From: Elusimicrobiota bacterium
Lineage (GTDB): Bacteria > Elusimicrobiota > Elusimicrobia > UBA1565 > UBA9628
DNA length: 62,670 bases
Direction: 5' to 3'
NCBI GenBank assembly: GCA_016191335.1
Contig: JACPOW010000107.1
Span: forward strand, 1-62,670
Shown here: piece after piece, positions 32,874 to 62,670 of the stretch
How the letters are laid out: each line of letters opens with the position of its first letter
Numbering within the stretch: position 1 is the stretch's first letter
Translations under genes and position numbers: made by a program
The notes under the pieces: model-generated
What the model was told of the DNA's origin: nothing
What the model saw: only the letters and a program-made list of their open reading frames with translations
Databases searched by the model: none

Positions 32874-33827
32874 ATGAGACTCCTCCTTCTCCTCGCCCTG
32901 TCGTCCTGCGCTTCCGCCGCCTTCGCCCAGGCCGCGCCCTGGCCCGACGGCTACTGGGAGCGGCAATACGGGTACGGCCAGCCGTGGTCGGTCCTGTACA
33001 TGGTCAACCTGAAGGTGGACGCCCCGGCCGAGGCCCGGGAGAAGGCCGTCAAGCTCCTCGAGCAGTCGGGCGGGCGCCCGGCGCAGAGCGGGGGCTACGG
33101 CGGCTACGGCCGGTCCGGACCGTACCAGCAGCTCAGCTATTTCGTCCCGGTGGAGAAGGCCGAGAAGGCCGCCAAGCGCCTGTTCTCTCTCGGCGACCTC
33201 CAGCAGTTCTCGACGCAGAAGGCTGGCGCGGCGACCCAGCTCCCGGAGATCCGCGAGAAGATCGCCGCGCTCGAGGGCGAGCGCAAGGCGGGGGCCGCGG
33301 AGCTCGAGAACCTCCCGATCGCCCGCACCTTGCTGGCCGCGCAGCTGGCGAAGCTGACCCAGGCGCGGGATTCGCTCGAGGCCGGCGCGGGGACCGCTCT
33401 GGTCAACGTGACCTTGGGCGACGCGTCCTCGCCCGACGCCCAGAGGATGATCCACGCCAAGCGGGCCGTCCCGGTCGCGCCGACGCCGAGCAACGAGGGC
33501 CAGGCCAAGGGCTCCCTCGGCGCGCTGCGCTCCGCGCTGTCCATCTACTACGGGGACCTGGAAGGGCGCTACCCGTCGTCGTTCGCGGACCTAACGGCCG
33601 GGGGGAAGTACCTGACCGCGGTCCCCCGCATCCGCGTCCACAACCACGCGGAGACCGACACGGTGACCGTCTACAAGGGCGTCAAGGACCTGGATTCCCT
33701 CAAGGCGAAGCTAAAGGACACGGGCGGCTGGGCCTACGTGGCGGACCCGAATTCGCCCCTGCTCGGCAACGTCGTCGTCGACTGCAAGCACGTCGATTCG
33801 CGCGGCCGTCCCTGGGCCGATTACTGA
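32874..33827 (+). CDS. Secreted protein with DUF4349-like part and C-terminal pseudopilin-like domain
   Basis: 317 residues. Signal peptide 1-19 (LLLLLALSSCASAAFAQ). Residues about 35-180 have a beta-alpha-beta plus coiled-coil pattern like DUF4349 (VNLKVDAPAEAREKAVKLLEQ; later IREKIAALEGERKA). The last about 105 residues, from GSLGALRSALSIYYGDLEGRYP to VVVDCKHVDSRGRPW, follow the C-terminal body of type II secretion/type IV pseudopilins of this bacterial group. The N-terminal prepilin cleavage site and hydrophobic helix are absent, so it cannot be assembled as a normal pilin. Function unknown. Confidence 0.68.
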   Translation: MRLLLLLALSSCASAAFAQAAPWPDGYWERQYGYGQPWSVLYMVNLKVDAPAEAREKAVKLLEQSGGRPAQSGGYGGYGRSGPYQQLSYFVPVEKAEKAAKRLFSLGDLQQFSTQKAGAATQLPEIREKIAALEGERKAGAAELENLPIARTLLAAQLAKLTQARDSLEAGAGTALVNVTLGDASSPDAQRMIHAKRAVPVAPTPSNEGQAKGSLGALRSALSIYYGDLEGRYPSSFADLTAGGKYLTAVPRIRVHNHAETDTVTVYKGVKDLDSLKAKLKDTGGWAYVADPNSPLLGNVVVDCKHVDSRGRPWADY

Positions 33828-33944: not shown

Positions 33945-34808
33945 ATGGCAGAGGCGTACGCGGCGGTCCTCGAGAAGCTGACGAAGAGCTCGATCGAGCA
34001 CGACTACGACCCGCGCCGGCGCTTCGCATGGCCGGACGGCCTCGACGCGGACGAATGGCTGATGCCGCCCGAGCTCATGTCCGTCCACGACACGCCGCTG
34101 GCGGGCTCCCTCGACCGGCGGACCCTCAAGGCCCTGAGCAAGTGGGAGCTGGTGAATTTCTTCAGCCTGACCCTTCACGGCGAGCGCGAGCTGCTCATGG
34201 TGATCAGCCGACACATCCACACGGACGGGTTCGAGGCTCCGTCCGACTTCTTCCATCGCTTCATCGAGGAAGAGAACAACCACATCTGGTTCTTCTCGGA
34301 ATTCTGCCGGCGCTACGGGAAGATCTATCCCGATTCCACCGTCAGCGTCGCGTCGGAGGACCTCCGCCCCGGGCTCGGGATCCTCCTGTCGTTCCTGCGC
34401 ATCCTCATATTCGAGGAGATCGGCGATCATTTCAACATCCGCATGGGCTCGGACGCGAGGCTGCCCTCGATCGTCCGCGCCCTGAACAGGGCTCACCACG
34501 GCGACGAGTCGCGGCACATCGCGGCCGGCCGGCAGATCGCCCGGCGCCTCCACGCGCTGCTCGGACGCCTGAGCCCGGAGGAGGAGTCGGCTTTCCTGGA
34601 GCAGCTCAAGGAGTACGTCTCCTTCACCCTCCAGTCGTTCTACAACCCCCAGATGTACTCGGACGCGGGTATCCGGGACGCTTACGGGTTCCGACGGGAG
34701 CTTCTCCTGCAGCCCGGCCGGAGGAAGCAGCACGGGGTGTTCCTCGGACGCTCGCTGGCTTTCCTGCGGAGCAGCGGCATGGTCCTGCGGCCGGACGCGT
34801 TGTATTAG
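33945..34808 (+). CDS. AurF-like diiron N-oxygenase family protein
   Basis: 287 residues, helical. Ligands of the AurF/CmlI-type carboxylate-bridged diiron site are readable: Glu80 or Glu82 (HGERELL), Glu110-x2-His113 (EENNH), Glu157 or Glu158 (FEEIGDH), then His184-x3-Glu188-x2-His191 (HGDESRH). Characterised members oxidise amines to hydroxylamines, nitroso or nitro compounds, or hydroxylate carrier-bound substrates. The two genes that follow encode a carrier protein and an amino acid ligase, so the substrate may be an aminoacyl thioester on the carrier; this is inference. First gene of a three-gene operon. Confidence 0.85.
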   Translation: MAEAYAAVLEKLTKSSIEHDYDPRRRFAWPDGLDADEWLMPPELMSVHDTPLAGSLDRRTLKALSKWELVNFFSLTLHGERELLMVISRHIHTDGFEAPSDFFHRFIEEENNHIWFFSEFCRRYGKIYPDSTVSVASEDLRPGLGILLSFLRILIFEEIGDHFNIRMGSDARLPSIVRALNRAHHGDESRHIAAGRQIARRLHALLGRLSPEEESAFLEQLKEYVSFTLQSFYNPQMYSDAGIRDAYGFRRELLLQPGRRKQHGVFLGRSLAFLRSSGMVLRPDALY

Positions 34809-34819
34809 AAGGAGGACTC

Positions 34820-35089
34820 ATGGATAACGAGCGGATCGGAGAAGTGCGGAGGTGGCTGCTGCGGGAGAGGCCCGACATCAAGGAGATCGGCCTGGACACC
34901 GACCTGATCGACGACCGCGTCCTGGATTCGGTCACGTTCATCAATTTCGTCTATTTCATGCAGGAGCTCACCGGCAGGCGGATCCCGCTGGCGTCGGGGA
35001 CGGCCGTGAATTCGCTCCGCACTCTGCGGCGGATCCAGACTAACTTCCTGGAGGGGGCGAACAATGAGACGATCAAAGTCGGCGTATAG
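34820..35089 (+). CDS. Acyl/aminoacyl carrier protein
   Basis: 89 residues, start at ATG 34820 with AGGAGG 5-10 bases upstream. It has the four-helix carrier layout, and VLDSVTFINFVYFMQE contains the phosphopantetheine-attachment Ser37 in a DSVTF context. Not the housekeeping AcpP: the sequence is divergent and basic at the N-terminus. No phosphopantetheinyl transferase is in the window. Its 3' end overlaps the ligase gene by 26 bases, implying tight coupling and direct partnership. Confidence 0.85.
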   Translation: MDNERIGEVRRWLLRERPDIKEIGLDTDLIDDRVLDSVTFINFVYFMQELTGRRIPLASGTAVNSLRTLRRIQTNFLEGANNETIKVGV

Positions 35090-35957
35090 CGTCGATCAGG
35101 GCCTGGCGACGCTGGGGCCGGAGATGGTGCGCATCCGTGCGTTGCTCGACGCCCGGTTCCTGGAGTGGGCGCAGGCCTGCCAGGCGGCGCCGATGCTGTT
35201 CCCGCCCCTGATGCGGGTCAAGGACCTGAGCCGCTTCGACTACTTCAAGAATTTCCCGCATCTGGCGGCGCCCGTCGCGAGGATCGCCCCGTCGAAGCTC
35301 GAGGCCGAGTACGCCCTCAAAGAGGGGGTCGAGGAGATCCCGGCGGAGCACATGACCCCGAGCGCGTACGTCCTGCCCTCGGCGGCGTGCTACAACATCT
35401 ATCTGCACCTCCAGGATGAGCGGCTCGACGCGCCGGCCTACGTCACGACGATCGCGAGCTGCTTCCGCAACGAGACGGAATACGACGGGCTGAGGCGGCT
35501 GTGGGGCTTCTCGATGAGGGAGATCGCGTGCGTCGGACCCATGGACGCGGTCCAGGCTCACCTTGGCTCGTTCAAGGCGAGGATCTCGGATTTCCTGCGC
35601 GGCCTGGGCCTGCCGCACGAGATCAAGGCCGCCAGCGACCCCTTCTTTCAGCCGACGAACCCGAGGGCCCAGATGCAGGTCCTGTTCCCGACGAAGGAGG
35701 AGTTCGTCTACGGAGGGTCGCTGGCGTTCGGCTCGATGAATTTCCACCGGAACTTCTTCGGCGACCGCTGCCGCATACGCACGGCCGACGACAAGCCCGC
35801 CTACACGGGCTGCGTCGCGTTCGGCATCGAACGCTGGCTCCACGCCCTCGTGGACCATTTCAAGACGCCCGAGGCGGCGATCCGGGCCCTCTCGATCGCC
35901 CGGCCGGCCGACGGATCGCGCCGGCGGGGCGAAGCGGCGAGGTCTCTCGCGATGTGA
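35064..35957 (+). CDS. SerRS-like amino acid:[carrier protein] ligase
   Basis: 297 residues. A class II aminoacyl-tRNA synthetase catalytic core without a tRNA-binding arm. Motif 2 reads ASCFRNETEYDGLRRLWGF; motif 3 reads TGCVAFGIERW. Cys109 (AACYNIY), Glu153 (MREIA) and Cys250 (TGCVAF) are spaced like the zinc ligands of atypical SerRS and of bacterial amino acid:[carrier protein] ligases, which activate glycine or alanine with ATP and load it on a carrier protein. The carrier gene just upstream makes this assignment strong. GGAGGG precedes ATG 35064. The C-terminal 25 residues are poorly conserved in character. Confidence 0.85.
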   Translation: MRRSKSAYSVDQGLATLGPEMVRIRALLDARFLEWAQACQAAPMLFPPLMRVKDLSRFDYFKNFPHLAAPVARIAPSKLEAEYALKEGVEEIPAEHMTPSAYVLPSAACYNIYLHLQDERLDAPAYVTTIASCFRNETEYDGLRRLWGFSMREIACVGPMDAVQAHLGSFKARISDFLRGLGLPHEIKAASDPFFQPTNPRAQMQVLFPTKEEFVYGGSLAFGSMNFHRNFFGDRCRIRTADDKPAYTGCVAFGIERWLHALVDHFKTPEAAIRALSIARPADGSRRRGEAARSLAM

Positions 35958-35982: not shown

Positions 35983-36855
35983 TCACGGCCCCGTCGGGAC
36001 GACGAGGCGCATGGCGGGGTTGCCGAACATCTTGGCCCCGGCCTCGACGCTGCGCAGCACGACGGCGCCGATTCCGATGAAGCAGCCGTCGCCGAGGGTG
36101 ACCTTCTGCATGATCGAGCAGTTCGGAGCGAGCCACGCGTTCCTGCCGATCGTGACCGAGCCGCTGATCTCCGCGCAGGCGGTGATCATCGTGCCCGCCC
36201 CGATGTGGCAGTTGTGCCCGATGTGGACGTGGTCGTCGGTCTTCACGTAATCCTCGACGACCGTGTCGCCGAGGGCGCCGCGGCAGGCCGTGTTGACGCT
36301 CCCGATCTCCACGTGATCGCCGATGCGCAGCCCGCCCAGCTGGATCATCTTGATCGGGCGGCCGTCCTCGTCGCGCTCGAACCCGAAGCCGGCCTCGCCG
36401 ACGATCGCCCCCGATTTGATCTCGCAGTGCCGGCCGATGACCGTCCCGGACTTGATGACGGCGCCGCTGCCGATGCGCGTCCCCTCGCCGATCCTCACGC
36501 CGTTCTCGATGACCGCCCCGCGCCCGACCTGGACGGTCGGATGGAGGTCCGGCGGAGTGGAATCCTCGAGGAATCCGGGGGATTCCCGGAGGAGGTGCTG
36601 CGCGCGGATGAAGTCGAGCCGCGGCTTCGGGGACCTGATCACGGTGAGGCCCCGGATGGGCAGGGACGCGGTCGCGAAGACCGTGCCGGTCGAATCCGGC
36701 CCGGGCGCGCGGTCCCGCACGAAGGCCAGCGAATGCGCGTCGAGCGAATCGAGGCCGCCCACAGCCCGGATCTCCCTGTCGGGCCCGATCAAGGTCAGGC
36801 CCAACTCCCGGCACAGTCGCTCGGCCTGGACCGGCTGCTTGAGTCTCTTGTTCAT
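35983..36855 (-). CDS. LpxD-like hexapeptide-repeat acyltransferase
   Basis: 290 residues. A short N-terminal domain, then left-handed beta-helix repeats (VQVGRGAVIENGVRIGEGTRIG and so on). The block GEAGFGFERDEDGRPIKMIQLGG is typical of LpxD, and HVHIGHNCHIG carries the likely catalytic His. It is about 50 residues shorter than standard LpxD, and the usual IDRG motif is replaced by TACRG, so it may acylate another amino sugar. Cytoplasmic. A TATCAT at 36883-36878 and AGGAGGG before ATG 36855 mark a leadered message. Convergent with the oxygenase/carrier cluster. Confidence 0.78.
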   Translation of the reverse strand: MNKRLKQPVQAERLCRELGLTLIGPDREIRAVGGLDSLDAHSLAFVRDRAPGPDSTGTVFATASLPIRGLTVIRSPKPRLDFIRAQHLLRESPGFLEDSTPPDLHPTVQVGRGAVIENGVRIGEGTRIGSGAVIKSGTVIGRHCEIKSGAIVGEAGFGFERDEDGRPIKMIQLGGLRIGDHVEIGSVNTACRGALGDTVVEDYVKTDDHVHIGHNCHIGAGTMITACAEISGSVTIGRNAWLAPNCSIMQKVTLGDGCFIGIGAVVLRSVEAGAKMFGNPAMRLVVPTGP

Positions 36856-58626: not shown

Positions 58627-58673
58627 CGCCCTCCCGCCCGGCCGCCGTTGTTGTCGGCCTTTTGCCTAAATGC

Positions 58674-58679
58674 TACTTT
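58674..58679 (+). promoter_or_regulatory. -10-like hexamer TACTTT for gcvTHP
   Basis: TACTTT ends 6 bases before ATG 58686. No glycine riboswitch is visible in the 59-base space upstream. Confidence 0.4.
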
Positions 58680-58685
58680 AGGCAT

Positions 58686-59804
58686 ATGTCCACCTCGGCG
58701 GTCGCGCGTCGCACGGCGCTGTACGAAAGCCACAAGAATCTGGGCGGTAAGATCGTCGATTTCCACGGGTGGGAATTGCCGGTCCAGTACGAATCGATCA
58801 TGAAGGAGCACGAGGCCACGCGCCATCGCTGCGGCCTGTTCGACGTCTCCCACATGGGCCAGGTGTTCGCGACGGGCCCCGGAGCCCTCGCCTTCCTCCA
58901 GAAGGTCAACGCCAACGACATCTCCCGCATCGGCCCGGGCAAGGCGATCTACTCCCACCTGCCCAACGAGAAGGGCGGGGTCGTCGACGACGTCATCGTC
59001 TCCTGCCTCGCCAAGGACCGCTACCTGATCGTCGTCAACGCGGCCACCGCCGACAAGGATTTCGCCTGGTTCCAGAAGCACGCGAAGGGCTTCGACGTGA
59101 AGCTCGAGAACAAGTCCGACCTCTACGGCATGATCGCGGTGCAAGGCCCCAAGGCGGCCGAGATCGCGGCGATGATCGCGCCGAAGATGGCCGCGCTGCC
59201 CCGGTTCGGCGCCCTCGAGCTCGAATTGTACGGCCAGCCCTCGTTCATCACCCGCACCGGCTACACCGGCGAGGACGGCTGCGAGTTCATCGTGCCCAAT
59301 GAGATCGTCGTCCGCGTCTGGGAAGACCTGCTCGCGCAGGGACGCTCTCTCGGCGCGGCGCCCTGCGGCCTCGGCGCGCGCGACGTGCTCCGCCTCGAGG
59401 CGGGCTATCTCCTGTACGGGCAGGACCTCGACGACGACCTCAGCACCTTCGAGGCCAACTACGGCTGGGTGGTGAAGCTCGACAAGGGGGACTTCATCGG
59501 CAAGGCCGCCTTGGTCAAGCAGAAGGCCGAGGGCATCAAGAGGAAGCTCACCGGCGTGAAGCTTCTCGAGCGCGGCGTTCCTCGCGCGGGCGCCCCGGTC
59601 ATGCTTGAAGGCAAAGAGATCGGGAAGTTCTGCTCGGCCACCTACTCGCCGAGCCTGCAGGCGGGGATAGGAACGGGCTACCTCGATAGACCGGACCTCG
59701 CTCCGGGCACCAAATGCAGCGTCGTATTGCACGGCCGGGAGATCCCCGCCGAGATCGTGAAGACGCCGTTTTACATCTCACCCAACCTCAAAAAGGGAGC
59801 CTGA
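58686..59804 (+). CDS. gcvT: Glycine cleavage system aminomethyltransferase (T protein)
   Basis: 372 residues. Typical T-protein blocks: GWELPVQYESIMKEHEATRHRCGLFDVSHMGQ near the N-terminus, LQKVNANDISRIGPGKAIYS, TRTGYTGEDGCEFIVPN and GLGARDVLRLEAGYLLYGQDL (Asp of the folate site). Transfers the aminomethyl carbon from lipoylated GcvH to tetrahydrofolate. Start at ATG 58686 rather than 58662 because of the -10 spacing and family N-terminus. gcvH follows after 4 bases. Confidence 0.96.
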   Translation: MSTSAVARRTALYESHKNLGGKIVDFHGWELPVQYESIMKEHEATRHRCGLFDVSHMGQVFATGPGALAFLQKVNANDISRIGPGKAIYSHLPNEKGGVVDDVIVSCLAKDRYLIVVNAATADKDFAWFQKHAKGFDVKLENKSDLYGMIAVQGPKAAEIAAMIAPKMAALPRFGALELELYGQPSFITRTGYTGEDGCEFIVPNEIVVRVWEDLLAQGRSLGAAPCGLGARDVLRLEAGYLLYGQDLDDDLSTFEANYGWVVKLDKGDFIGKAALVKQKAEGIKRKLTGVKLLERGVPRAGAPVMLEGKEIGKFCSATYSPSLQAGIGTGYLDRPDLAPGTKCSVVLHGREIPAEIVKTPFYISPNLKKGA

Positions 59805-59808
59805 ATTT

Positions 59809-60210
59809 ATGCTCGACCCGAAGAAATTGAAGTACATGAAGTCCCACGAGTGGCTGGACCTGCAGGGCGACGCGGGCACGGTCGGCATCTCCGACCATGC
59901 GCAGAAGGAGATCACGGACGTGGTCTTCGTCGAGCCCCCGAAGGTCGGCCGCAAGGTCAAGCAGGGCGAGGCGTGCTGCGTCGTCGAGTCGGTGAAGGCC
60001 GCCTTCGACATCTACGCCCCCGTCTCCGGCGAGGTCACCGCGGTGAACGCCGACGTGGTGAAGGACCCCTCCCTCGTCAACGCCGAGGCCTTCGGCAAGG
60101 GCTGGCTGTTCAAGCTCAAGGCGTCCGCTCCCGACGAGGCGGCGAAGCTCATGACCGAGGCGGCGTACGAGGAGTTCCTGAAAGCCGAGGCCGCCCATGG
60201 AAGCCACTAA
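59809..60210 (+). CDS. gcvH: Glycine cleavage system lipoyl carrier (H protein)
   Basis: 133 residues. Lipoyl domain with the attachment Lys in [18 protein letters not shown] and the family tail [16 protein letters not shown] lies before ATG 59809. Carries the aminomethyl group between GcvP and GcvT. The last 14 bases overlap the gcvP start, implying coupled translation in T-H-P order. Confidence 0.95.
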
Positions 60211-62670
60211 GGAGAGAGCCACGAAGACCTCCCTTCCTCCCGCCGACGATTTCTCCCGCCGCCACATCGGCTCCGGCGCCGCCGACCAGGCGGCGATGCT
60301 CGCCGCGCTCGGCCGCCCGTCGCTCGACGCCCTGATCGACGCGGTCGTGCCTCCGGCGATACGCCTCAAGAAGGCCCTCGACCTTCCGGCCGCCGCGTCC
60401 GAGGCCGAGGCTTTGAAGGAACTGCGGGCGCTGGCCGCCCGCAACCAGGTGTGGCGCTCGTACCTCGGGCAGGGCTACCACGACACCGTGACGCCGCCGG
60501 TGATCCTCCGCGAGATACTGGAGAACGCGGGCTGGTACACCGCCTACACCCCCTATCAGCCCGAGATCGCGCAGGGGCGTCTCGAGGCGTTGCTGAATTT
60601 TCAGACGTTAATAATCGATCTGACAGGCCTGCCCGTCGCCAACGCGTCGTTGCTCGACGAAGGCACCGCCGCGGCGGAGGCCATGGCGATATGTCTTCAC
60701 GCCAGCGAGGACCCCGCGGGCAGGGTGTTCTTCGTCTCGAGCGAGTGCCATCCCCAGACCATCGAAGTCGTCAAAACCCGCGCCACGCCGCTAGGCGTGA
60801 CCGTGCTGGTCGGAGACGAGTCCCAGATATCCGGCAAGAAGCTGTTGGGCGCGTTGGTCCAGTACCCCGACACCCGCGGAGCGGTCAAGGATTGGTCCAA
60901 GTTCGCGGACGCCGTTCACGCCGCCGGGGGCCAGTTGGTCGTGGCGGCGGATCTGTTGGCCTTGACCCTGTTCAAGGCCCCGGGCGAGTTCGGCGCGGAC
61001 ATCGCGGTCGGCTCCACCCAGCGCTTCGGCGTGCCTCTCGGGTTCGGCGGGCCGCACGCGGCGTATCTTTCCGTGAAAGAAGCGTTCCAGCGGCGCATCC
61101 CGGGGCGCATCATCGGGGTGTCGAAGGACTCGCACGGGAAGCCGGCGCTGCGGCTGGCCCTGCAGACGCGGGAGCAGCACATCCGGCGCGAGAAGGCGAC
61201 GAGCAACGTGTGCACGGCGCAGGTGCTTCTCGCCGTGATCGCGGGCATGTATGCCGTGTACCACGGACCGGAAGGGCTCACCCGCATCGCCCTTCGTGTG
61301 CGCGCGTTGGCGCAGAAATTAAGAAACGGATTGAACGAATTGGGCGTGGATACGGGTACCGACATAGTGTTCGATACCATACATGCTCGCGTCGCCTCCG
61401 GCGACGCGGGGAAAATAAGAACGGCGGCGGAAGCGAAGAAGATCAACCTTCGTTTTTACGGCAACGGAGTGGTGATCTCTTTGGACGAGGCCACAACGGA
61501 AACGGATGTGGCCGACATATTGACCGCCTTCGGCGGTCGAACGGCGACGGATGGACCGAGCGTCGAGATACCCGCCAACCTTAAGAGAACCTCCAAGTTC
61601 TTGACCCACAAAGTTTTTTCCGAACACCGTTCGGAAACCGAGATGTTGAGGTACTTGCGCAAGCTCGAGGGGAAGGACCTGTCGCTTGTGCACTCGATGA
61701 TCCCTCTCGGTTCGTGCACCATGAAGCTCAACGCGGCTTCTGAAATGCTTCCCGTCACTTGGCCCGAGTTCGGAAAGATGCACCCCTTCGTTCCCGCCGA
61801 TCAAGCCGCGGGATATCGAGAGATGACCTCTCAGCTCGAGAAGTGGCTCGCGGAGATCACCGGCTTCGCCGCCGTCAGCCTTCAACCCAATGCCGGTTCT
61901 CAGGGCGAGTACGCCGGTCTGTTGGCCATCCGCGCGGCGCAGAACGCCCGCGGCCAGGCGCACCGCAAGACCTGCCTGATCCCGGTCTCCGCGCACGGCA
62001 CCAACCCGGCGTCGGCGGCGATGGCGGGGATGAGCATCGTCACCGTCGCGTGCCTCGAGGACGGCGACATCGACCTGGCCGACCTCAAGAAGAAGGCGGA
62101 CGAGCACGCGAAGGACCTGGCGTGCCTGATGGTCACCTACCCCTCGACCCACGGCGTCTTCGAGGAAGGCATCAAGGAAGTCTGCTCGATCGTCCACGGT
62201 CATGGCGGGTTCGTGTACATGGACGGCGCGAACATGAACGCGCAGGTCGGCCTGTGCCGCCCCGGCGACATCGGCGCGGACGTCTGCCACCTGAACCTGC
62301 ACAAGACCTTCTGCATCCCTCACGGCGGCGGCGGGCCCGGCATGGGCCCGATCGGCGTGGTCAAGGAGCTCGCGCCCTTCCTGCCCGGCTCGAAGGACGT
62401 GTCTGCCGTTTCGTCGGCGCCGTTCGGCTCGGCCTCGATCCTGCCCATCTCGTGGATGTACATAAGAATGATGGGCCCCGACGGTTTGGCCAACGCGACG
62501 AAGAACGCGATACTCAACGCGAACTACATCGCCAAGCGCCTCGACGCCCACTTCCCCGTCCTTTATAAGGGGAGGAACGGCCTGGTGGCGCACGAGTGCA
62601 TCGTCGATCCCCGCGCGCTCACGGCCGCGGCGGACGTGGTCGTGGCTGATCTCGCGACACGCCGGATGGC
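60197..62670 (+). CDS. gcvP: Glycine dehydrogenase (decarboxylating), single-chain P protein, 3' end beyond window
   Basis: About 824 residues visible, open at the right edge. Start ATG 60197 inside the end of gcvH. P1-type half: [52 protein letters not shown]2-type half: [41 protein letters not shown], and the PLP Lys in [18 protein letters not shown]. Decarboxylates glycine on PLP and passes methylamine to GcvH. Both halves are in one chain (separate gcvPA/gcvPB is the alternative in many bacteria). Codon usage between about 60600 and 61800 is visibly less GC-biased than at either end. Confidence 0.95.

Follow-up and report, generated by a model that had tools for sequence, protein, structure and literature searches.

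The glycine-derived nitronate pathway of enteromycin and related cassettes was reportedly described by He and Ryan (Nature Chemistry, 2021). HamC and PvfB, the N-oxygenases of the fragin, valdiazen, and pyrazine N-oxide pathways, work within an amino-acid carrier pathway in which valine is loaded by a nonribosomal peptide synthetase (NRPS) and not by a ligase resembling seryl-tRNA synthetase (SerRS). Excerpts of two papers describe glycine-derived nitronates that are made by a di-iron oxygenase and are then O-methylated or denitrified (PMC9967187, PMC11035981). The excerpt of the latter reports at second hand that a nitronate monooxygenase (NMO) denitrifies the nitronate intermediate (PMC11035981), and that of the former, the akazaoxime paper, proposes that glycine is loaded on an NRPS and that its amine is converted to an aldoxime via a di-iron oxygenase (PMC9967187). 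AurF-type enzymes are reported, in an excerpt, to yield nitroso, nitro, and nitronate products (PMC12154687). A proposal from 2010 for SerRS-like carrier ligases of other bacteria has their systems attach an amino acid in modified form to a surface sugar, through the sugar's amino group (PMC2922099). Here we analyze a stretch of 62,670 nucleotides from an Elusimicrobiota bacterium (GTDB lineage Elusimicrobia, UBA1565, UBA9628; assembly GCA_016191335.1, contig JACPOW010000107.1, positions 1 to 62,670 of the forward strand), the whole of which we call the window, and in which an AurF-like di-iron oxygenase, a carrier protein, and a SerRS-like ligase are encoded side by side.

The trio occupies the plus strand, where a first-pass annotation of the sequence had placed three adjacent or overlapping genes. 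The gene for the AurF-family di-iron oxygenase (P0001; 33945-34808, 287 aa), a predicted N-oxygenase of a carrier-bound amino acid, is followed after a gap of 11 nt by that of a stand-alone carrier protein (P0002; 34820-35089, 89 aa) with attachment site Asp36-Ser37. The latter overlaps by 26 nt the gene of a SerRS-like amino acid:[carrier protein] ligase (P0003; 35064-35957, 297 aa), with zinc ligands Cys109, Glu153, and Cys250 and a predicted role as glycine loader. Beyond the ligase, on the minus strand, lies a gene for an LpxD-like hexapeptide acyltransferase (LpxD2; 35983-36855), which is additional to the housekeeping LpxD and a candidate for an enzyme acting on the acceptor side. We tentatively propose, as a reading that is quite possible, that these genes form one biosynthetic cassette. 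The SerRS-like ligase would adenylate glycine and load it on the adjacent carrier, the AurF-like oxygenase would take the carrier-bound amine to the nitronate, and LpxD2 would pass the nitronate acyl group to an amino sugar. Loading and oxidation are suggested by protein family, residues, and genomic company, and transfer is suggested by comparison between loci.

The trio recurs widely. Relatives of the ligase were collected in a single scan of species genomes and the best 80 of 279 were kept, so that locus counts are biased toward closer relatives. These 80, together with L006 and L007, make up a set of 82 loci (one genome counted twice, as L007 and L009) in which gene calling was mechanical; L001-L005, which hold two other synthetases and duplicates of the window's own locus and of that of genome G008, were left out of neighborhood counts. 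Of the 80 loci fetched, 76 have an AurF homologue upstream of the ligase, and the pairing extends over Elusimicrobiota, Acidobacteriota, Actinomycetota, and Pseudomonadota. The carrier was detected by its own profile in 79 of the 82 loci, upstream of the ligase in 67 (3 more once ligase frames called too long are taken into account) and downstream in 9. Since homologues of each member are conserved in other phyla, the three open reading frames are not chance reading frames, and the frequency of the upstream oxygenase rejects a coincidental trio; conservation of the neighborhood in relatives was a check that the first-pass annotation had itself suggested. Distance matrices of oxygenase and ligase, computed without L009, are correlated (rho 0.42, n = 77; 0 of 1000 permutations as high, the best reaching 0.13), a correlation that is in part shared organism history. 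The tree of ligases grouped the five Elusimicrobiota rows, from four genomes, with support of 100/100, and placed next to them Acidobacteriota, Burkholderiales, and Chloroflexota rows (90/80) and then Streptomyces rows (89/91). Within Elusimicrobiota the trio is rare, being present in 4 of 340 genomes. Note that in Nonomuraea soli (L058, 9992-11679) the ligase gene occurs as a tandem pair.

The oxygenase scores 102.6 bits with Pfam AurF (cut-off 29.6), and its predicted fold is like that of AurF and CmlI. Residues E110xxH113, E157, and H184xxxE188xxH191 are kept throughout the 78 oxygenases from the loci, and a second, partly overlapping set, which consists of the query and 99 of 100 homology matches (P0223 was dropped), keeps them in 98 of its 100 members. 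The N-oxygenase Dob3 has as counterparts E137, H140, E198, H225, E229, and H232, of which H225 is termed typical of N-oxygenases in an excerpt of its description (PMC12154687). When mapped by motif and not by coordinates, the spacing of the six residues within the motifs (3; 27, 4, 3) is that of Dob3. Because COX1 was detected in all four genomes that hold the trio, the use of oxygen is plausible.

The ligase belongs with carrier ligases and not with tRNA synthetases. It matches Pfam tRNA-synt_2b (41.5 bits, cut-off 29.3), has a class II synthetase core, and matches the aa:[acyl-carrier-protein] ligase of the PDB with an E-value of 4.5e-24. Among solved enzymes, the Bradyrhizobium glycine:[carrier protein] ligase is nearest both by sequence and by predicted fold; the best match in the fold comparison, another check proposed at first pass, was this Bll0957 ligase. 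Residues 6-280 of the model align with residues 25-310 of the Bll0957 chain, and the protein, with its 297 residues, has no tRNA-binding N-terminal domain. Cys109, Glu153, and Cys250 are identical in all 82 loci and align with Cys, Glu, and Cys of the same chain. A role as tRNA synthetase was rejected, since among solved proteins its nearest relatives are carrier ligases and two genes elsewhere in the genome match PF00587 far more strongly (131.7 and 108.1 bits, versus 42.7). Glycine is the likely substrate, and its likely destination the adjacent carrier.

The carrier has no Pfam match up to an E-value of 1 and matches acyl carrier families of NCBIfam weakly (best E 0.0014), and Ser37 is conserved in all 79 carriers found. 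No match to two phosphopantetheinyl transferase (PPTase) profiles was recovered in the window; the three ACPS-family matches of the host genome are all on other contigs. In genome G036 (L009), however, a PPTase (PF01648) is encoded between the LpxD-like gene and the ligase, and another, 63% identical to it, occupies the same place in G016, where the window has only 25 bp. A cassette PPTase has likely been lost from the window, and a PPTase encoded elsewhere in the genome would then have to prime the carrier. A search with the G036 enzyme (E 1e-5) recovered nothing around two of the PPTase-family genes of the host genome. The assignment of the oxygenase to the AurF-like enzymes, its HxxxExxH and ExxH ligand sets, the three zinc ligands and the missing tRNA-binding arm of the SerRS-like ligase, the DS attachment site at Ser37, and the lack of a PPTase in the window had all been read by the first-pass annotation from the letters alone, and agree with these results.

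That annotation had also stated that the window encodes no release enzyme, which is not quite so: the LpxD2 gene, on the opposite strand, ends 25 bp past the ligase stop and is a plausible release enzyme of the cassette. LpxD2 matches the NCBIfam LpxD model below its cut-off (177.1 versus 242.5 bits), and a second copy in the genome passes it with 252.7 bits, by which LpxD2 was rejected as the sole LpxD of the genome. In alignment, it shares with the housekeeping copy the hexapeptide helix and the HIGHNC segment, whose histidine is the catalytic base of LpxD. The gene adjoins the trio in all three readable trio loci of Elusimicrobiota (G000, G016, and G036). At an E-value of 1e-50 it was found in 8 of 340 Elusimicrobiota genomes, at nine loci, three of them beside the trio. 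In four of the other six, LpxD2 directly follows the carrier gene of another loading cassette, which in three is complete and encodes an AMP-forming ligase, an asparagine-synthase-like amidotransferase, a NadE-like protein, the carrier, and LpxD2 (L115, 4519-10276; L116, 4710-10423; L126, 3312-9001); the contig of the fourth begins within the NadE-like gene. The nearest relative of the AMP-forming ligase is the exosortase-A-associated type, at a score below the cut-off of that type. This genomic company suggests that LpxD2 is an acyltransferase that takes its acyl group from the neighboring carrier and delivers it to a sugar.

Within the genus, the trio lies between sdhC and the gene of a solute-binding protein. 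Of 19 genomes of the genus, two held the module. Seven had a gap of only 31-165 bp between the flanking matches, five had one of 0.9-5.5 kb that lacked the trio, and the remaining five allowed no verdict. The G036 module is located elsewhere, with no match to sdhC or the solute-binding protein within 20 kb. Their joint occurrence at two chromosomal sites gives the trio, the PPTase, and LpxD2 the look of a single unit. A DUF4349-like gene (32874-33827; 20.6 bits, below cut-off) lies between sdhC and the trio in the host genome, and the oxygenase adjoins sdhC in G008 and G016. At a distance of 23 kb from the trio (58662-62668) are three genes which, from reading by eye, we take to be those of the glycine cleavage proteins GcvT, GcvH, and GcvP.

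The level of oxidation is suggested by the company of the trio in relatives, where neighbor genes were counted over the 82 loci with profiles built from neighbor clusters. An NMO is encoded by the ligase in 41 loci, with midpoints 0.2-1.7 kb apart, and a Methyltransf_2-type gene within 8 kb of the ligase in 11, of which 6 also have the NMO (Pfam identity of the NMO and Methyltransf_2 clusters was checked in two representatives each). NRPS-type genes are present in 33 loci and a PAD_porph gene in 10. We place the probable product at the nitronate level mainly because both published fates of nitronates, those catalyzed by the monooxygenase and by the methyltransferase, occur among the relatives. 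These patterns suggest that carrier-bound amino acids are N-oxidized in four or more phyla, in varied settings that include a monooxygenase, a methyltransferase, an NRPS, a deiminase, or an acyltransferase. Other neighbors were also recurrent. A lone condensation domain and a PAD_porph gene flank the trio in 10 loci (L035, L036, L042, and others). A conserved protein of about 323 aa, with no Pfam match in the one representative scanned, is encoded upstream of the oxygenase in many Actinomycetota (L073, 7882-8853, and 35 other loci), and a second di-iron protein, of the ribonucleotide-reductase small-chain type, is encoded upstream of the trio in one group of Actinomycetota (L031, 6445-7548, and similar loci).

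Several observations weigh against the proposed sequence of loading, oxidation to the nitronate, and transfer, in addition to the shared organism history noted for the distance matrices. The ligase is only about 28% identical to the solved Bradyrhizobium enzyme and scores 128.7 bits with the NCBIfam equivalog NF005479, far under the cut-off of 357, which makes it a relative and not that equivalog. An upstream oxygenase homologue is missing from 4 of the 80 loci (L026, L028, L032, and L043), three of which (L026, L028, and L043) gave none anywhere in the locus, and no carrier was recovered by its own profile in 3 of the 82 (L016, L017, and L043). In the di-iron site, the position of the first carboxylate seems to alternate between residues 80 and 82 of the oxygenase: a carboxylate occupies one or both, and never neither, in all 178 rows of the two partly overlapping sets, the window oxygenase has one at both (residues 80-82, 34182-34190), and in a comparison of the sequence profile with the PDB this residue did not align to AurF. 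LpxD2 ends after its helix; the housekeeping LpxD continues into a C-terminal helical extension, which in LpxD has a role in carrier binding. Moreover, its gene is convergent with the trio and not co-transcribed with it, is present without the trio in five genomes, and has no carrier match beside it in two of the nine loci, one of which is cut by a contig end; of these two, one follows an epimerase-family gene at the contig end and the other a different gene. In G008, the fourth trio genome, which is about 70% complete and whose contig ends at the ligase, there was no LpxD2 match elsewhere. Finally, profiles of the NMO, methyltransferase, NRPS, condensation, and deiminase genes had no match in the window or in the related loci L008, L009, L114, and L117, so that the nitronate level is drawn from relatives.

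How far the oxygenase goes, and on what, admits other answers. Alanine or another small residue could be the substrate of the ligase. The oxygenase might conceivably attack carbon, hydroxylating or desaturating an amino acid on the carrier that is perhaps not glycine (e.g., alanine), which we regard as very unlikely. The oxygenase may instead halt at the hydroxylamine or oxime, leaving an N-hydroxyglycyl- or oximinoacetyl-carrier as a building block. The aldoxime proposed, in excerpt, for akazaoxime (PMC9967187) and the nitroso compounds listed, with nitro and nitronate, as AurF-type products in the excerpt of PMC12154687 speak for such a halt. The NMO and methyltransferase company that is frequent in relatives points to the nitronate level but is missing from the Elusimicrobiota loci, and we find an early halt improbable. 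If the nitronate is formed, an NMO encoded elsewhere could denitrify it to nitrite and a glyoxylyl thioester, the cassette then serving as a source of nitrite or C2 units with LpxD2 as a bystander. The frequency of the NMO by the ligase (half of the 82 loci) and its second-hand report of action on a nitronate intermediate (excerpt of PMC11035981) would fit this scheme. However, no NMO profile match was found in the window or in L008, L009, L114, and L117, and LpxD2 accompanies the trio at two sites. Furthermore, the only Pfam NMO matches of the genome are weak, three on contigs other than that of the trio with 27, 24.6, and 23 bits; one of them exceeds the cut-off, at 30.9, when in-frame neighbors are counted. 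With weak matches and none near the trio, NMO-dependent denitrification in the host genome is weakened, and we judge it distinctly improbable.

A more serious alternative concerns the last step. LpxD2 could stand beside the trio by chance and belong to an unrelated neighboring unit for lipid A or some other polysaccharide. Its convergent orientation, its occurrence in five genomes that lack the trio, and its want of the C-terminal extension of the housekeeping LpxD speak for this reading. Yet the association recurs at two sites in the chromosome, two genomes have a PPTase gene between LpxD2 and the ligase, seven members of the genus have only 31-165 bp at the site, and a carrier gene directly precedes LpxD2 at four of its six other loci. 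An incidental LpxD2 is doubtful in our view, though far from negligible.

Our reading of the cassette as one that loads, N-oxidizes, and transfers glycine could have consequences beyond the window. Some Elusimicrobiota may decorate a surface amino sugar with N-oxidized glycine, loaded by the ligase on a dedicated carrier, converted there by the oxygenase to a nitroacetyl (nitronate) thioester, and transferred by a dedicated LpxD-like enzyme; this full scenario is unlikely as it stands, and if true, aliphatic nitro groups would reach a glycan without an NRPS or a polyketide synthase. More generally, three enzyme families that have been studied separately are joined in one recurrent minimal cassette, a likely job for this clade of SerRS-like ligases is to feed a di-iron N-oxygenase, and in Elusimicrobiota the locus points to an unrecognized acyl group, perhaps on a glycan. 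The minimal pathway advanced at first pass is supported in part, namely in the enzyme families, their ligands, the attachment serine, and the notion that an amino acid is loaded and then N-oxidized on the carrier. Of its three suggested products (hydroxylamine, oxime, or nitro compound), the company of relatives favors the nitro or nitronate form. The trio, not known to that annotation as a characterized set, is confirmed in place and proves to be a widespread cassette, here with a plausible release enzyme beside it.

Each enzyme family is already known, as is the published glycine nitronate pathway. As far as our searches go, the SerRS-like loader as a near-constant partner of this oxygenase clade is apparently new, and so are the trio in Elusimicrobiota and its LpxD-like and PPTase partners; among the literature matches listed there was no account of an oxygenase-carrier-SerRS-like-ligase trio, although a prior description is possible. 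With the arylamine N-oxygenases AurF and CmlI, P0001 shares the Pfam family, the fold, and the ExxH and HxxxExxH motifs, but identity is 12-16% and the predicted substrate of P0001 is an aliphatic amine bound to a carrier. HamC and PvfB are likewise N-oxygenases of this superfamily that work in an amino-acid carrier pathway. The enteromycin-type pathway and the trio have in common a carrier and a di-iron oxygenase of the AurF superfamily, and relatives of the trio carry NMO or methyltransferase genes; the Elusimicrobiota loci, in contrast, have an LpxD-like gene instead of NMO, methyltransferase, or NRPS matches. LpxD2 has the hexapeptide helix and HIGHNC segment of LpxD, the UDP-3-O-acylglucosamine N-acyltransferase, but scores below cut-off, lacks the C-terminal extension, and is an extra copy with a dedicated carrier nearby. 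Where the excerpt of the akazaoxime paper has glycine loaded on an NRPS (PMC9967187), a SerRS-like ligase and a stand-alone carrier are found here. The ligase shares with Bradyrhizobium Bll0957 (PDB 3mey/4h2w) the class II core, the Cys-Glu-Cys zinc residues, and an adjacent carrier. Its partner, however, is an AurF-like oxygenase, in place of the Rossmann-fold redox enzyme and the uncharacterized proposed ligase named for Bll0957-type systems in the excerpt of PMC2922099. The transfer step that we propose would nevertheless resemble the one put forward in that same excerpt, in which a modified amino acid is delivered onto a surface sugar (PMC2922099).
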